Of a DNA stretch of 64,000 nucleotides, positions 8,569 to 15,745 are shown in pieces. Where the stretch lies: NCBI RefSeq assembly GCF_902833145.1, contig NZ_CADFEN010000005.1:434001-498000 (forward strand). The letters run 5' to 3'. The stretch comes from Burkholderia sp. BCC0506. Lineage in GTDB: Bacteria > Pseudomonadota > Gammaproteobacteria > Burkholderiales > Burkholderiaceae. Each line of letters starts with the position of its first letter. Position 1 is the stretch's first letter. The notes beneath the pieces are model-generated. The model saw only the letters and a program-made list of their open reading frames with translations, was not told the origin of the DNA and ran no database searches. A program made the translations under genes and the position numbers.

Positions 8569-9021
8569 TTACGGCTTGCCGTGCCGCGCCAGGAACCGGT
8601 CGAGCTGCGACGCGAACGTCTTGCCGTCGCGCGCGCTGAACGGCGCCGGGCCGCCCGTATCGATGCCCGCGCTGCGCAACTGGTCCATCATCGCGCGCGT
8701 CGACAGGCGTTCCTCGATGTTCTCGCGGCTGAACCAGTTGCCGCGCGGGTCGAGCGCATGCGCGCCCTTGTCGAGCACCGCGGCGGCCAGCGGGATGTCG
8801 GCGGTGATCACGAGGTCGCCGGCTTCCGCCAGCTCGACGATGCGCGCATCGGCCACGTCGAAGCCGGCCGGCACCTGCACGGCCTTGATGAACGGCGACG
8901 GCGGCGTGCGCAGAAACTGGTTCGCGACCAGCGTCACGCAGATTTCGGCACGACGCGCAGCGCGAAACAGCATGTCCTTGATGACGGCGGGACACGCGTC
9001 GGCATCGACCAGTACTTGCAT
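8569..9021 (-). CDS. YaiI/YqxD (DUF188, UPF0178) family protein
   Basis: The 150-residue protein begins MQVLVDADACPAVIKDMLFRAA. It has the conserved family features: an N-terminal VDADACP motif, VANQFLRTP, GDLVITADIPLA and the C-terminal GGPAPFSARDGKTFASQLD. The Asp-rich pattern resembles PIN-like or NYN-like nuclease folds, but no biochemical function is established for the family. Length is typical. It lies just downstream, in transcription order, of the cobaltochelatase VWA frame (60 bases), but it is not a cobalamin gene elsewhere, so the proximity is probably incidental. Confidence 0.85.
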   Translation of the reverse strand: MQVLVDADACPAVIKDMLFRAARRAEICVTLVANQFLRTPPSPFIKAVQVPAGFDVADARIVELAEAGDLVITADIPLAAAVLDKGAHALDPRGNWFSRENIEERLSTRAMMDQLRSAGIDTGGPAPFSARDGKTFASQLDRFLARHGKP

Positions 9022-9081
9022 GGCGGGGGTTCCAGTGGGCGGAAGCAGAAGCGGCGATCATAGCGCACCGCCGGCCGGCCA

Positions 9082-9765
9082 TCAGCCGGCGAGGTCCGTG
9101 CGCAGCGCGTCGGCCGTCACCCATTGCGCGCCCCACGCCGCGGCGAGCCGCGCACCCTGCCCGATCCGCACGGCCGTATCGTCGAAGTCGACGAACACGA
9201 CGTGGTCGGCCGCCGCGGGTTTCGCCGGCATGTCGCGCGTTCGGCCGTCGGACAGCACCCACAGCCAGCGTGCCTTGCCGGGCGCGCGGCGAGCAGCACG
9301 GGCAAGCAACTGGGCGGCGGCCGCGATGCCGTGCGCAAGCGGCGTGCCGCCACCGCCTTCGACCGGTTCGAGCCAGCGCGCGTTCCACCAGCGCGGCACC
9401 GCCGGGCCGAAGCGCCGCGCGGCGCCGTGGCCGCCGAAGCAGACCAGCGCGGTTTCGACGCGTGCGCGCGCGGCCTGATCGAAATACGCGACGATCAGCC
9501 CCTTCGCGAGCGCGAGCCGCTCATTCGTCAGCATCGACGCCGAACAGTCGAGCACGAAGCAATGCAGCGCGTGCGGCGTGCCCGCGCGCTTTGCGAAACG
9601 CAGATGATCGCGATGCAGCGGGCTGCCGCGTTTCGCGGCGAGCGTCGCCGGCCACGCGACAGCCGTGCCCGCGCGCACCGTGCCCGGCACGCGCGCAGCG
9701 GCGCCTGACTGCCATCGAGGACCGCGAATGGCGTTCGCGGCGGCGCCGGCTCGATGGCTCAGCGT
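9082..9765 (-). CDS. chlD: VWA-domain extension of cobaltochelatase subunit ChlD, reached by -1 frameshift
   Basis: This frame encodes about 227 residues and contains a von Willebrand A domain with an intact MIDAS motif DCSAS (in CFVLDCSASMLTNERLAL). A distal LWVLSDGRTRDMP and VVFVDFDDT follow. There is no ATG or good ribosome-binding site in this frame near its beginning. The first codons directly overlap the end of the AAA+ frame at a run of seven A (9765-9771). Reading through by -1 slippage gives a continuous protein of about 587 residues with the order AAA+ domain, acidic/Pro-rich linker, VWA domain, which is the order of ChlD/BchD. ChlD works with ChlI as the ATP-driven motor that drives metal insertion by CobN. 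Independent initiation at a GTG in the 9690-9715 area is the alternative. Confidence 0.8.
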   Translation of the reverse strand, partial: TLSHRAGAAANAIRGPRWQSGAAARVPGTVRAGTAVAWPATLAAKRGSPLHRDHLRFAKRAGTPHALHCFVLDCSASMLTNERLALAKGLIVAYFDQAARARVETALVCFGGHGAARRFGPAVPRWWNARWLEPVEGGGGTPLAHGIAAAAQLLARAARRAPGKARWLWVLSDGRTRDMPAKPAAADHVVFVDFDDTAVRIGQGARLAAAWGAQWVTADALRTDLAG

Positions 9766-9771
9766 TTTTTT
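9711..9771 (-). promoter_or_regulatory. Programmed -1 ribosomal frameshift signal (slippery A7 plus stem-loop)
   Basis: On the minus strand the zero frame reads CTA AAA AAA CGC TGA, so a heptamer A-AAA-AAA (9771-9765) sits just before the stop at 9759-9761. After a 6-base spacer (CGCTGA) begins a perfect 9-bp inverted repeat, GCCATCGAG (9758-9750) with CTCGATGGC (9719-9711). The loop holds a second perfect hairpin, arms 9722-9728 and 9734-9740, 5-base loop. The downstream VWA frame is exactly the -1 frame. Such signals have been reported for chlD genes of cobalamin clusters, where they yield ChlI (termination) and ChlD (shift) from one gene. Confidence 0.82.
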
Positions 9772-10844
9772 AGCGGCAGCGGCACCACGCCTTTCACGTC
9801 GCGCAGCCCGGCCGGTTCGGGCGGCAGGTAGCCCCAGTCGCCCTGCGACGCGGACGTGTCGGACTTGGTGTCGCCGGTCTCGCCCGGTCGGCCGTCGGGC
9901 CGTTGGTGCGGCTCCGGCGGCGAACGATCGTCGCCGAAGCCGTCGTGTCGCGACGACGGATGCGACGGCGGCGCCGCCGCATGGCGCCGATGCCGCAGCA
10001 CGGCCTCGGCCACGCGCTCGACATGCGACACCGTCACCGCCTCCGCTTGCTCCAGCGCGGCAAGCGCACGCGCGGCGCGCAGCATCACGAGATCGGCCCG
10101 CAACCCGTCGACGGCCGCGTCGATGCACAGCGCGCTGACGCGCGCATGGACCGCATCGCCAAAATCCAGCGCCGGCAGCCGCGCGCGCGCCGCATGAATC
10201 CGCTCCGCGAGCACCCGCTGGGCAGCCGCATGACGCGCGCGAAACGCATCCGGATCGAGATCGAACGCAAGCCGCGCCTTCACGATCCGCTCGCGCTGGG
10301 CGGCGTCGAAGCAGTTCTCCAGTTCGACCATCAGCCCGAAGCGGTCGAGCAATTGCGGACGCAACTCGCCCTCTTCGGGATTCATCGTGCCGACCAGCAC
10401 GAAGCGCGCGTCGTGCGCGTGCGACACGCCGTCGCGCTCGACGATGTTCACGCCGCTCGCGGCGACGTCGAGCAGCGTATCGACGAGCCCGTCGGCGAGC
10501 AGGTTCACTTCGTCGACGTACAGCACGCCGAGATGCGCGCGCGCCAGCAGGCCGGGCCGGAAGCGCACGCCGTTTTCGGCGAGCGCATGCGCGAGATCGA
10601 GCGTGCCGGTCACCTGCTCGTCGCTCGCCGACAGCGGCAGCGTGACGAACTGCCCTTGCGGCAGCAGCTCCGCGAGGCCGCGCGCGGCGGTCGATTTCGC
10701 GGTGCCGCGCGGGCCGCTGACGAGCACGCCGCCGAGCGACGGGTCGATCGCGGCAAGCAGCAGCGCCTGCTGCAACGCGTCCTGCGCGACGAGCGCCGCA
10801 AACGGAAAAACCGCGCGGGCGCGGGGCGTCGTCGGATCGGTCAT
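9759..10844 (-). CDS. chlI: Cobaltochelatase AAA+ ATPase subunit (ChlI/BchI-like), zero-frame product
   Basis: The 361-residue zero-frame protein is a magnesium/cobalt chelatase AAA+ ATPase. It has Walker A GPRGTAKST near residues 45-53, Walker B with LGVLYVDEVNLL near 110-121 and the conserved VLVGTMNPEEGELRPQLLDRFGL stretch in two parts. The last 70 residues are a Pro, Asp and Gly-rich linker (DDRSPPEPHQRPDG), unusual at the end of a ChlI but normal in the middle of a ChlD, where it joins AAA+ to VWA. The ATG overlaps the cobN stop as ATGA. The frame ends directly after a slippery A7, and the VWA domain follows in the -1 frame. Both a short ChlI and a fused ChlD are therefore expected. Confidence 0.9.
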   Translation of the reverse strand: MTDPTTPRARAVFPFAALVAQDALQQALLLAAIDPSLGGVLVSGPRGTAKSTAARGLAELLPQGQFVTLPLSASDEQVTGTLDLAHALAENGVRFRPGLLARAHLGVLYVDEVNLLADGLVDTLLDVAASGVNIVERDGVSHAHDARFVLVGTMNPEEGELRPQLLDRFGLMVELENCFDAAQRERIVKARLAFDLDPDAFRARHAAAQRVLAERIHAARARLPALDFGDAVHARVSALCIDAAVDGLRADLVMLRAARALAALEQAEAVTVSHVERVAEAVLRHRRHAAAPPSHPSSRHDGFGDDRSPPEPHQRPDGRPGETGDTKSDTSASQGDWGYLPPEPAGLRDVKGVVPLPLKKR

Positions 10845-13800
10845 CGCCGTCCTCCTTCCTGACGTTGTTCGCTGGCGAGCCAGAGCGCTTCGATCCGCTC
10901 GCGATAGTGGCCCGGCTGCTGCCACAGCCCGCGCTGCATCGCTTCGACGAAGCGTTCGCAGATGCCGTGCAGCGCCTTCGGGTTGTGCCGTTCGAGGAAC
11001 GCGCGGATGGCGTCGTCGAACAGGTACGCGTCGGCGACGAGCGCGTACTGGTGATCGGACAGCACGCGCGCGGTCGCGTCATAGCCGTACAGGTAGTCGA
11101 CGGTCGCCGCGAGTTCGGCCGCGCCCTTGTAACCGTGACGCTTCACGCCGTCGAGCCATTTCGGGTTGACGACGCGCGAGCGGATCACGCGGGCGATTTC
11201 CTCGCGCAGCGTGCGCATCTTCGGCGCGACCGGGTTCGCATGGTCGCCGTGGTAGATGCTCGGCTGCTGCCCGGACAGGTGCCGCACGGCCGCCGTCATC
11301 CCGCCCTGGAACTGGTAGTAGTCGTTCGAATCGAGGATGTCGTGCTCGCGGCTGTCCTGGTTCTGCACGACGACGTCGATCGTCGCGAGCCGCTCGCCGA
11401 ACACGTCGGCCGCCGCGTCGCCCGCGCTGTTCTGCGCGTACGCATGGCCGCCCCATTGACGGTAGGCGTCCGCGAGATCGGCGTCGGTCTGCCAGCGGCG
11501 CTGGTCGATCAGGTCCTGCAGGCCCGCGCCGTAGCTGCCCGGCCGCGCGCCGAACACGCGCCAGCCGGCGCGACGCCGCGCTTCGTCGGGCGCCACGCCC
11601 TGCGCGATCCACTTCTCGCGTTCGCGCTCGATGCGCGCGCGGATCGGGTTCAGCGCCTCGGGCTCGTCGAGCGCGGCAACCGCCTGCACGGCCGCGTCGA
11701 ACAGGTGCATCAGGTTCGGGAACGCGTCGCGGAAGAAGCCCGACACGCGCAGCGTCACGTCGATGCGCGGCCGGTCGAAGATCTCGATCGGCAGGATCTC
11801 GAAGTCGGTCACGCGATGGCTCCCATGCGCCCATTTCGGGCGCACGCCGATCAGCGCGAACGCCTGCGCGATGTCGTCGCCGCCGGTGCGCATCGTGGCC
11901 GTGCCCCAGACCGACAGCCCGATCGCGCGCGGATAGTCGCCGTGATCCTGCAGATGGCGCTCGATCAGTTGCTGCGCGGATTTCAGGCCGAGCGACCACG
12001 CGGCCTGCGTCGGCACCGCACGCGTATCGACCGAGTAGAAGTTGCGGCCAGTGGGCAGCACGTCGGGGCGGCCGCGCGACGGCGAACCGCTCGGCCCCGG
12101 CGGCACGAAGCGGCCGTCGAGCCCACGCAGCAGTTGACGCATTTCCTCGCCGCCGCACGCGTCGAGTGCGGGCAACAGCGTCGAACGCACGCGTTCGATC
12201 ACCGCGCGCGTATGCGGCCATTCGCCGGGCGGCGGCATGTCGATGCCGGGATCTTCCGAAGCGGTTCCGCACACCGCGTTCAGCCAGTGCTGCGCGAGCC
12301 GTTCGAGCCGCTCGCGCGTATCGCCCGCATGCCGCCACGGCGACGCGTCGAGCCGCTGCAGCACAACCGGCCGCGGCCCGGTCCACGGCGCGGCCCAGTC
12401 GGCCGCGAGCGGATCGAACGCGTCGCCGAGCGCGAGATCGCGCGCGAGCGCGCCGATCAGCCCGGCGCGTTCGCCCTTGCCGTCGCCGACCGGAAAGCGT
12501 GCGAGCGCGAGCAGCGTGTCGCGCCGCTGGCGCGCGAGCGGCGACGCGCCGAACACGTGCAGCCCGTCGCGGATCTGCGCTTCCTTCAACTCGCACAGCC
12601 ACGCGTCGACCCGCGTGAGCAGCGCATCCTCGTCGCCCGCATCGCGCGGCGGCGACACGCTCAGCTCGTCGTGCAGGCGATGCTCGGCGATCGTCGCGAG
12701 GATCGTCTTGCGCAGCAGCTTCGCGCGCCGCGCATCGACCATCAGCGCTTCGTAGTATTCGTCGACCTGCCGCTCGAGATCCTGCAGCGGGCCGTAGTTT
12801 TCCGCGCGCGTGAGCGGCGGCATCAAGTGATCGACGATCACGGCCTGCGCGCGGCGCTTCGCCTGGCTGCCCTCGCCCGGATCGTTGACGATGAACGGAT
12901 ACAGGTGCGGCAGCGGCCCGAGCGTCAGGTCGGGCCAGCACGCGTCGGACAGCGCGACGCTCTTGCCCGGCAGCCATTCGAGATTGCCGTGCTTGCCGAG
13001 ATGGATGACCGCGTCGACGCGATACGCATCGCGCAGCCAGAAATAGAACGCGAGATACGCATGCGGCGGCACGAGGTCCGCATCGTGGTAGCTCGCGTAG
13101 TCGTTCTCGTCGCGCGAGCGCGACGGCTGGATGCCGACGAACACGTTGCCCGCGCGCCAGCCGGCGATCGTGAAACGCTGCTGCCGCAGCGTCGGGTCGG
13201 CTTCGGGCGGCCCCCAGCGTGCGTTCAGCGCATCGCGCACGGCGGCCGGCAGCCGCGCGAAACGCGCGACGTAGTCGGCCAGCGCATAACTCTGGAACGC
13301 GGGCCGCAGCGTGCGCACGGCGGGATCGTTGGTCACGCCTTCGGTGAGTCGCGCGATCAGCGCGTCGCCGTCGGGCGGCAGGTCGGCCACCGTATAGCCC
13401 GCGTCGCGCAGCGCCGCGAGCACGCGCAGCGCGGACGCCGGCGTGTCGAGCCCGACGCCGTTGCCGATCCGCCCCTCGCTTTGCGGATAGTTCGCGAGAA
13501 TCAGCGCGATGCGCTTGTCGACGTTGTCCAGCGTGCGCAGCCGGCACCAGCCGCGCGCGAGCGCCGCGACGAACGCGATCCGCTCGGCATCCGGCTGGTA
13601 GCGCACGACGTCGACCTCGGTATGCGGGCAACGATACGCGAGCCCCTTGAAGCTCACCGCGCGCGTGACGATGCGCCCGTCGACCTCGGGCAGCGCGACA
13701 TGCATCGCGATGTCGCGTGCATGCAGGCCCTGGTTGTCGGTCACCCACGCGTCGCGATTGCCGCCGGACAGGATCACCTGCAGCACCGGTGCGTCGCCGG

Positions 13801-14650
13801 CCAGCACGTCGTGCTCGGGGCTGTCGATCGCGCCGGCCGCGAACGCGGTGGTATTCAGCACGAGCGCGACGCCGTGCGCGTCGCAGAGCCGCGCGATGAC
13901 CTCGCGGCTCACCGCGTCCTTCAGCGACGTCACCGCGATCGGCAGCGGATTCAGCCCTTCGTCGACGAGCGCGTCGGCCAGCGCGTCGAACACGGCCGTG
14001 TTCGCGGCCTGCCAGTGCGCGCGATAGAACAGGATCGCGACGACCGGCGCGCCGGGCGTCCAGCGCGGCCGCCAGTCGTCGACGCTCGCGCGGTCGCGCG
14101 CCGGGTGATACAGCGCGGCGGCCGGCAGCGGGCGCGGCGGTTCGGGTTCGTCGCCGAACCCGAACGTGTGAAACGCGATGCTGCGCAGCAGCGCGTCGGC
14201 GTTGTGCACGCCGCCTTCGCGCAGATAGCGCCACCACAGCCGGCACAGCTCGGGCCTGACCGTGCTCTTCGCGACGAGGTTCGGGTCCTCCTGCAGGTCG
14301 CCCGAGAACATCGCGAGCTGCTGCCCGCGCTTCGACGCGAGCGACACGGCCTGCTCGATTCCGTACGGCCAGTACGCTTCGCCGCCAAGATGATCGATCA
14401 CGACCGTCTTCGCGTGGCGCAGCACGTCGTCGACGTAGAAATCGACCGACGCCGGCTGTCGCAGGAACGTGACGTTCGCGAGCCGTACGCTCGGGAACCC
14501 GGCCGGCAAGTGCGGCACGACGCTCGCGAGCAGCGACAGCGTCGTGTCGGCCGAACTCAGGATCACGATGTCGGCCGGCTGCTGGTCGATCCGGACGACG
14601 CCCTGCGTATCGTCGACGAAGCCGCCCGGCGTGGTGCGCAGCAGATGCAT
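10841..14650 (-). CDS. cobN: Aerobic cobaltochelatase large subunit CobN
   Basis: The protein has 1269 residues, the usual length for CobN and ChlH-type chelatase subunits. It begins MHLLRTTPGGFVDD and carries the family hallmarks: VAILFYRAHW, VLQVILSGGNRDAWV, IALILANYPQSEGRIGNGVG, VIHLGKHGNLEWLPGKS and, near the C-terminus, DSNDYYQFQGGMTAAVRHL. CobN binds hydrogenobyrinic acid a,c-diamide and inserts cobalt in the oxygen-dependent cobalamin pathway, driven by an ATPase motor complex. Here that motor is the ChlI/ChlD-type gene downstream (4-base ATGA overlap) rather than CobS/CobT. cobW lies only 6 bases upstream, and the set follows a B12 riboswitch, so repression by adenosylcobalamin is expected. 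Confidence 0.95.
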   Translation of the reverse strand: MHLLRTTPGGFVDDTQGVVRIDQQPADIVILSSADTTLSLLASVVPHLPAGFPSVRLANVTFLRQPASVDFYVDDVLRHAKTVVIDHLGGEAYWPYGIEQAVSLASKRGQQLAMFSGDLQEDPNLVAKSTVRPELCRLWWRYLREGGVHNADALLRSIAFHTFGFGDEPEPPRPLPAAALYHPARDRASVDDWRPRWTPGAPVVAILFYRAHWQAANTAVFDALADALVDEGLNPLPIAVTSLKDAVSREVIARLCDAHGVALVLNTTAFAAGAIDSPEHDVLAGDAPVLQVILSGGNRDAWVTDNQGLHARDIAMHVALPEVDGRIVTRAVSFKGLAYRCPHTEVDVVRYQPDAERIAFVAALARGWCRLRTLDNVDKRIALILANYPQSEGRIGNGVGLDTPASALRVLAALRDAGYTVADLPPDGDALIARLTEGVTNDPAVRTLRPAFQSYALADYVARFARLPAAVRDALNARWGPPEADPTLRQQRFTIAGWRAGNVFVGIQPSRSRDENDYASYHDADLVPPHAYLAFYFWLRDAYRVDAVIHLGKHGNLEWLPGKSVALSDACWPDLTLGPLPHLYPFIVNDPGEGSQAKRRAQAVIVDHLMPPLTRAENYGPLQDLERQVDEYYEALMVDARRAKLLRKTILATIAEHRLHDELSVSPPRDAGDEDALLTRVDAWLCELKEAQIRDGLHVFGASPLARQRRDTLLALARFPVGDGKGERAGLIGALARDLALGDAFDPLAADWAAPWTGPRPVVLQRLDASPWRHAGDTRERLERLAQHWLNAVCGTASEDPGIDMPPPGEWPHTRAVIERVRSTLLPALDACGGEEMRQLLRGLDGRFVPPGPSGSPSRGRPDVLPTGRNFYSVDTRAVPTQAAWSLGLKSAQQLIERHLQDHGDYPRAIGLSVWGTATMRTGGDDIAQAFALIGVRPKWAHGSHRVTDFEILPIEIFDRPRIDVTLRVSGFFRDAFPNLMHLFDAAVQAVAALDEPEALNPIRARIEREREKWIAQGVAPDEARRRAGWRVFGARPGSYGAGLQDLIDQRRWQTDADLADAYRQWGGHAYAQNSAGDAAADVFGERLATIDVVVQNQDSREHDILDSNDYYQFQGGMTAAVRHLSGQQPSIYHGDHANPVAPKMRTLREEIARVIRSRVVNPKWLDGVKRHGYKGAAELAATVDYLYGYDATARVLSDHQYALVADAYLFDDAIRAFLERHNPKALHGICERFVEAMQRGLWQQPGHYRERIEALWLASEQRQEGGRR

Positions 14651-14656
14651 CGTGCG

Positions 14657-15745
14657 TTACGCCTGTTGCGGCTCGGCCGCGCACGCGGCGTCGAACGCGC
14701 GTTGCAGCGCGGCCGCGTCGAGGTCCTCGCCGATCAGCACGAAGCGGCTCGCGCGCGTTTCGCCGTCTTGCCAGCGGCGGTCGAAATAGCTGTCGAAGCG
14801 GCGGCCGACGCCCTGGATCACGAGCCGCATCGGCGCGCCGGGCAGCGCGGCGAAGCCTTTCGCGCGGTAGATCGTGTGCGCTTCGACGACACGCTGCAGC
14901 GCGGCGATCGTCGCGTCGCGCGAGCCCGCGTCGCCCGACACCACGACCGAATCGAAATCGTCGTGATGGTGATCGTGATCGCCGTCGTCGGCCGAGCCGT
15001 GATGGTCGTGCCGCAGATGGATCGTTTCCTCGGACGCCGATTCGAGGCCGAGCAGCATCGCCAGATCGAGCTCGCCGCGCGTCGCGCGCACGATCTTCAC
15101 CTGCGGCGGGATTTCGTCGCGGATCGCGGTTTCGATCCGCGCGAATTCGGCGTCGGCGACGAGGTCGGCCTTGTTCACGATCACGAGATCGGCGGACGAC
15201 AGTTGATCGGCGAACAGTTCGTGCAGCGGCGACTCGTGGTCGAGGTTCGGATCGGCGCGCCGCTGCGCGTCGACGGCCTGCGGGTTTTCCGCGAACTGGC
15301 CGCTCGCGGCGGCCGGGCCGTCGACGACGGTCACGACCGCGTCCACCGTGAAGCTGTTGCGGATCGTCGGCCAGTTGAACGCCTGCACGAGCGGCTTCGG
15401 CAGCGCGAGGCCCGACGTCTCGATCAGCACGTGGTCGATATCCGCGCGGCGCTCGACGAGCGCTTCCATCACCGGATAGAACTCTTCCTGCACGGTGCAG
15501 CACAGGCAGCCGTTCGCGAGTTCGTACAACTGGCCCGACGCTTCGCCCTGCGTGCCGTCGGCATCGTCGCAGCCGATGCCGCAGCCCTTGAGGATTTCGC
15601 CGTCGATGCCGAGCTCGCCGAATTCGTTGACGATCACCGCGATGCGGCGGCCCTCGGCGTGCTGCAGGATATGGCGCATCAGCGTCGTCTTGCCGCTGCC
15701 GAGAAAGCCCGTGACGATCGTGACGGGCAGCTTGCGTAGGGTCAT
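14657..15745 (-). CDS. cobW: CobW, GTPase metal chaperone of cobalamin synthesis
   Basis: The 362-residue protein begins MTLRKLPVTIVTGFLGSGKT, with a P-loop GFLGSGKTT near residues 13-21. It has the G3E-family metal-binding motif GCLCC (in ELANGCLCCTVQEE), the ETSGLALP switch and the NKADL guanine motif. A His/Asp-rich stretch (RHDHHGSADDGDHDHHHDD) around residues 245-268 is typical for metal delivery. CobW proteins are G3E GTPases thought to supply cobalt to CobN, which is encoded 6 bases downstream. A B12 riboswitch lies in the leader, about 340 bases before the start. Zinc-handling COG0523 paralogues are the alternative, but the gene order makes CobW clear. Confidence 0.95.
   Translation of the reverse strand: MTLRKLPVTIVTGFLGSGKTTLMRHILQHAEGRRIAVIVNEFGELGIDGEILKGCGIGCDDADGTQGEASGQLYELANGCLCCTVQEEFYPVMEALVERRADIDHVLIETSGLALPKPLVQAFNWPTIRNSFTVDAVVTVVDGPAAASGQFAENPQAVDAQRRADPNLDHESPLHELFADQLSSADLVIVNKADLVADAEFARIETAIRDEIPPQVKIVRATRGELDLAMLLGLESASEETIHLRHDHHGSADDGDHDHHHDDFDSVVVSGDAGSRDATIAALQRVVEAHTIYRAKGFAALPGAPMRLVIQGVGRRFDSYFDRRWQDGETRASRFVLIGEDLDAAALQRAFDAACAAEPQQA

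Follow-up and report, generated by a model that had tools for sequence, protein, structure and literature searches.

A conserved slip site and a covarying nested hairpin mark a probable frameshifted chlD gene of cobaltochelatase in Burkholderia and related genera

Our analysis of a 64,000-nucleotide stretch of Burkholderia sp. BCC0506 DNA (the window) indicates that two parts of cobaltochelatase, the enzyme of cobalt insertion in B12 synthesis, are encoded by one gene, very probably through a one-base backward slip of some ribosomes at a fixed position. We are highly confident that this fs-chlD gene yields a ChlI-like and a ChlD-like subunit by -1 ribosomal frameshifting. The original prediction had proposed the same one-gene reading, and it is supported by conservation of the layout, by the sequence A_AAA_AAR in 146/146 genes and by a covarying hairpin. 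The observed layout is real and well explained, and the frameshift in this gene is already known; the comparative RNA evidence points to a published recoding family at work across Burkholderia and genera related to it.

The gene lies on the minus strand next to cobN, and its two parts are read in different frames:

10841..14650, minus strand: cobN, aerobic cobaltochelatase large subunit (TIGR02257, 1585 bits, above the cut-off; PF02514)
9759..10844, minus strand: zero frame, ChlI-type AAA+ small subunit, from ATG 10844 to the stop TGA 9761-9759
9082..9765, minus strand: -1 frame, remaining linker and VWA domain (MIDAS motif DCSAS), ending at the stop 9084-9082

Direct reading of the sequence places cobN immediately upstream of the ChlI-type frame, with ATGA as the overlap. 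Profile searches matched the zero-frame piece to PF01078 and PF17863 above cut-off; TIGR02442, TIGR02030 and TIGR02031 also matched, but under their whole-protein cut-offs, because the piece covers one part of each profile. The VWA piece matched PF13519 at 28.0 bits (cut-off 27) and, taken alone, was likewise under the whole-protein cut-off of TIGR02442 ("putative cobaltochelatase," 641 positions). The best stretch of that profile was 88-346 for the AAA+ piece and 454-585 for the VWA piece; the two match one profile in order and are therefore colinear parts of one ChlD-type protein. Relatives of solved structure, by sequence, were ChlI/BchI and the 60-kDa subunit of Mg-chelatase. The family matches and the adjacent cobN back the ChlI and ChlD labels first given to the two pieces, and the predicted continuation of the -1 frame into a VWA domain with an intact MIDAS was borne out by DCSAS. 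As in fs-chlD, a ChlI-like AAA+ part and a ChlD VWA part thus occupy two frames, the second at -1.

In the surroundings, the minus-strand gene at 14657-15745 is presumably cobW-like, and a CobG match above cut-off was found on the same contig just beyond the window edge. The genome has a single ChlI-type place, and CobT had no match in it, while the positive control matched in Caulobacter; cobN is therefore present with no separate small-subunit gene in searches that covered ChlI-type places and CobT. Directly downstream, on the minus strand at 8569-9021 of the window, is a 150-amino-acid open reading frame that we take to encode a YaiI/UPF0178-like protein.

The two frames meet at a compact signal:

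9765..9771, minus strand: slip site A_AAA_AAA, read from the sequence
9759..9764, minus strand: 6-nucleotide spacer CGC TGA (a sense codon followed by the stop of the zero frame)
9750..9758, minus strand: outer stem, 5' arm, 9/9 pairs with 9719-9711
9711..9719, minus strand: outer stem, 3' arm, 9/9 pairs with 9758-9750
9722..9740, minus strand: inner hairpin with a 5-nucleotide loop, arms 9740-9734 and 9728-9722, 7/7 pairs

The zero frame ends CTA_AAA_AAA_CGC_TGA, with CGC at 9764-9762. Direct reading confirmed the heptamer, the 6-base spacer and the perfect 9-bp stem around a 7-bp hairpin that had been described before; the stop said to come "four bases later" is separated from the heptamer by three bases, its T being the fourth. 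In the mechanism that we propose, the majority of ribosomes would stay in frame at A_AAA_AAA_CGC_TGA and produce the ChlI-like AAA+ small subunit. The nested hairpin, beginning 6 nucleotides downstream, would hold a fraction of them. In these, both lysyl-tRNAs would move back by one base and re-pair with the A run, and translation would continue across the linker and the VWA domain to yield the ChlD-like medium subunit. Both products together with CobN would form the aerobic cobaltochelatase. Judged from sequence, the slip would occur on the ribosome in BCC0506, and its rate would set the ratio of ChlI to ChlD subunits, as the original prediction had also suggested.

The layout proved to be widespread. 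The gene was present in 63/65 Burkholderia genomes (BCC0506 included), with the VWA frame at -1 in 63/63; genome G016 had no match, and G057 (82% complete) had a weak match to another AAA+ gene alone. In the family sample, 123/249 genomes had a homologue at an E value of 1e-40. All 93 homologues outside Burkholderia were fetched, and 83 of them had the -1 layout; the other 10 comprised 3 in one frame with VWA, 5 long open frames without a VWA hit and 2 ChlI-like genes of 310 amino acids. The layout was therefore found in 146 genes from nine genera, with 135 distinct 70-base signal regions, and DxSxS was present in the -1 frame of every gene. Gene decay could also produce such a frame change, as could an A run that had been sequenced wrongly, and some relatives do have the homologue as one long open frame; yet 146 genes share the identical change at one and the same position, with the VWA frame intact, and this refutes the explanation, to which we assign a negligible probability. 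As for those relatives, L190, L191 and L194, from other genera of the family, had the ChlI homologue and VWA detected in the same long open frame, and L186, L187, L192, L193 and L195 were long open frames of 631-705 amino acids with no VWA by tblastn.

The named loci come from species that overlap with the sampled family genomes, so that the two sets are not independent. Among the 80 matches listed, 69 had A_AAA_AAR one codon before the stop and VWA at -1; L230 had the site without a VWA hit, L252 had a run of nine As that lay one codon further away, 8 were fused in one frame and L238 was not judgeable. The A7 layout occurred among the matches listed in Paraburkholderia, Caballeronia, Trinickia, Pandoraea, Chitinasiproducens, Variovorax, Hydrogenophaga and Duganella, and the A_AAA_AAG layout in Pseudomonas, Thauera and Denitromonas. 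The fused loci among the matches listed (L242, L243, L253, L254, L257, L264, L268 and L269) had ChlI and VWA in one frame and no slip site; they belong to the marine gammaproteobacteria Neptuniibacter, Psychromonas, Marinomonas and Motiliproteus and to one Proteobacteria MAG. In Comamonas endophytica (L283; NZ_CP106882.1, 1395-3082), the public record lists an "ATP-binding protein" and a "VWA domain-containing protein," and the A7, the stop and the stem are present. Annotation as two proteins hides the medium subunit of cobaltochelatase.

The slip site itself is strongly conserved. A_AAA_AAR stood one codon before the zero-frame stop in all 146 genes, as AAAAAAA in 143 and AAAAAAG in 3; among the 63 Burkholderia genes, 61 had AAAAAAA and 2 had A_AAA_AAG. 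Across the 111,096 bases of these 63 genes, a run of six As begins at 125 positions, 124 of which the slip sites account for; lysine codons elsewhere in the Burkholderia ChlI frames were divided between AAA (103) and AAG (104). The A7 run would also allow RNA polymerase to slip, giving a mixed mRNA pool that ribosomes read unshifted into the same two products. Genes with only six As and a G (the 3 above, and 30 among the 80 named matches listed, including Pseudomonas) speak against this, and the fixed phase, the constant 6-nucleotide spacing and the covarying stem suit a ribosomal signal better. These features would make the ribosome a likelier site of slippage than the polymerase, and we consider transcriptional slippage very unlikely. 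Against ribosomal frameshifting we count published work from E. coli which, in the portion available, has A_AAA_AAA slipping less than A_AAA_AAG.

Start codons bear on whether the VWA part could instead be a separate protein, made when ribosomes start again after the TGA, whether through re-initiation or translational coupling. The VWA frame had been said to have no start of its own; in BCC0506 there is indeed no ATG from the slip site to the MIDAS, but GTG codons occur at 9690 and 9678, and the -1 frame is open far upstream, by chance. These GTGs, and the annotation of the Comamonas endophytica record as two proteins despite the same A7 and stop, are what a separate start has in its favor. 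However, 14/146 genes had no ATG, GTG or TTG from the slip site up to a point six codons short of the MIDAS, 9 of these 14 (9/146) also had none back to the preceding -1-frame stop, and a Shine-Dalgarno-like motif accompanied 3/284 candidate VWA-frame starts; with these three start codons counted, the frame change is therefore the sole general route to the VWA product. A separate start would, in addition, leave the A7 and the stem unexplained, and we regard it as extremely improbable.

The frameshift signal, as the comparative data describe it, is a structured, covarying element and more than a slippery run. Heptamer, codon and TGA are common alone: AAAAAARNNNTGA occurs 14 times in the BCC0506 genome, versus 12 times for the reversed control pattern. 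The whole element is distinctive in this genome, unlike that short pattern: covariance model R1, built from the BCC0506 site and 56 related sites, scored 92.1 bits (E 3.2e-20) at the site and 20.4 bits (E 0.26) at the next-best place. Rfam, searched at the gathering score over 9000-11200 of the window, gave 0 matches. RNAfold recovered the nested fold, with -24.8 kcal/mol for 9711-9758 (z -2.27; 4/200 shuffles folded as well) and -28.3 kcal/mol for 9705-9764 (z -2.49; 2/200 shuffles as good). Folding of the single sequence is merely mildly unusual, and the weight therefore rests on comparative evidence.

Compensatory changes across Burkholderia, which the original prediction had proposed to look for, were present. 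Alignment A2 comprised 57 ungapped Burkholderia rows (42 distinct; L060-L064 were omitted for their longer inner hairpin), in which 99.1% of cells were paired and both sides had changed in 6/16 pairs, against a shuffled mean of 2.1. One of the five measures was weak, with 11 further pair types versus 9.0 in shuffles and 31/500 shuffles as high. RNAalifold, unaided, gave nearly the same fold from the Burkholderia rows. Family alignment A3 had 85 rows from 86 input loci (22/63 Burkholderia and 64/83 others; L180 was unmatched), and its rows were fitted to the model structure, which favors that structure; 96.2% of cells were paired versus a shuffled mean of 82.4%, both sides had changed in 13/16 pairs versus 7.6 (0/500 shuffles as high), and double changes occurred in 180 cells versus 47.3. 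When the partner was shifted by 1-3 columns in A3, pairing dropped to 20-55%.

Checks that need no alignment agreed, on 145 of the 146 genes (L056, with an N within the stem, was omitted). In 140/145 genes, the nine post-stop bases could form 8 or more pairs with a stretch further downstream, versus 16.5% of random positions in the same genes, and the minimum-energy fold was nested in 141/145; mean fold energy was -27.5 kcal/mol at the signal versus -17.3 kcal/mol in windows of equal length from other parts of the genes. Across 51 ungapped Burkholderia rows, four- to sixfold codons had a majority-codon share of 0.96-0.99 in the four stem arms (8 codons) versus 0.815 downstream (44 codons), and third-base conservation was 0.96-0.98 versus 0.80. 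The A7 and the stem are thus not the poorly conserved sequence, compared with flanking codons, that would have counted against the frameshift. We considered whether the stem is conserved merely for its peptide, with TLSHR encoded by the 5' arm and RW by the 3' arm. Changes that occur in both arms together speak against this, for example, GCCACCGGG with CCCGGTGGC in L053 and CCCGTCGGG with CTCGACGGC in three genes of genus g20, each of which also alters the -1-frame peptide. As read from these sequences, evolution appears to keep the nested hairpin through compensatory changes. Structure and covariation together identify the downstream RNA structure expected of fs-chlD, for which a stimulatory role is predicted.

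Model R1 was less reliable as a detector. Over the family sample it hit 107/249 genomes and 10/25 genera, chance hits among them. One, L196, in a small g12 genome of the family near 1470-1540 on the minus strand, was rejected as a chance look-alike antisense to a gene; it consists of an A run, CGCTGAGCC and a short hairpin, and the gene opposite is presumably lpxH-like. Similar R1 hits of 34-38 nucleotides in four more g12 and g8 genomes, a hit in G264, where no protein match reached 1e-40, and an extra partial hit in G234 were likewise taken for chance. In addition, 12 genes with the layout escaped R1 (G066, G078, G098, G113, G131, G147, G178, G208, G244, G250, G269 and G274). Given these chance hits and misses, our counts rest on gene-by-gene analysis of layout and heptamer.

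That chlD frameshifting had already been reported, as the original prediction stated, is right. This -1 frameshift family is described in the available text of Antonov et al. 2013 (PMC3711429), with 23 genes clustered from six genera including Burkholderia; three members were measured in E. coli and shifted frame at 63, 40 and 10%, falling as the A run shortens from 11 to 9 to 7. According to the available text of Kuznetsov et al. 2022 (PMC9227772), the signal allows both the small and the medium subunit of the chelatase to be made from a single chlD, and Antonov 2020 (doi 10.1093/molbev/msaa081) is cited there for the two-subunit interpretation. Our gene resembles this fs-chlD or "magnesium chelatase" family in gene, -1 direction, A_AAA_AAR, downstream structure and two-subunit reading, and the accessible text of PMC3711429 and PMC9227772 revealed no mechanistic difference. 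Searches for Burkholderia cobalt chelatase or chlD frameshift literature found none under those names; PMC3711429 says "magnesium chelatase."

A further comparison is offered by the Pseudomonas signal, from whose stem a cation-binding triplex was suggested in the Atkins et al. 2016 review (PMC5009743), which, in the part available, describes the structure-forming sequence as not strongly conserved. The Pseudomonas signal is alike in slip site, one codon, stop and a stem 6 nucleotides past the heptamer; it differs in having A_AAA_AAG and a single long purine/pyrimidine-biased hairpin, whereas that of the Burkholderiaceae is nested. The purine fraction of the first nine stem bases was 0.54 in the 146 Burkholderiaceae genes versus 0.33 in 27 Pseudomonas loci. 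Since the Burkholderiaceae element is strongly conserved and its first nine stem bases are mixed, the triplex suggestion is hard to carry over. The covarying nested hairpin and its contrast with the Pseudomonas stem are additions to the available text of PMC3711429, PMC9227772 and PMC5009743; Antonov 2020 may contain both.

We also considered, as an improbable reading, that the two-tier hairpin is a tunable element, distinct from the purine/pyrimidine-biased Pseudomonas stem, whose stability or ligand adjusts ChlI:ChlD to cobalt or cobalamin demand; if so, a hairpin with compensatory changes in nine genera would be more than a passive brake. Under -1 ribosomal frameshifting, the AAA+ module would be identical in the two products, and the frameshift rate would therefore be a direct handle on the subunit stoichiometry of an AAA+ motor. 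The dnaX gene, too, has a downstream hairpin and encodes by itself two subunits that belong to the same complex, as is proposed for fs-chlD. Its shift gives the shorter product and is helped by an upstream Shine-Dalgarno-like element, whereas the shift in fs-chlD would give the longer product, and no such element is visible by eye upstream of the BCC0506 A7. The slip site of fs-chlD is nevertheless of the same type as that of E. coli dnaX, whose A_AAA_AAG is, in the source text available, the classic ribosomal slip site.
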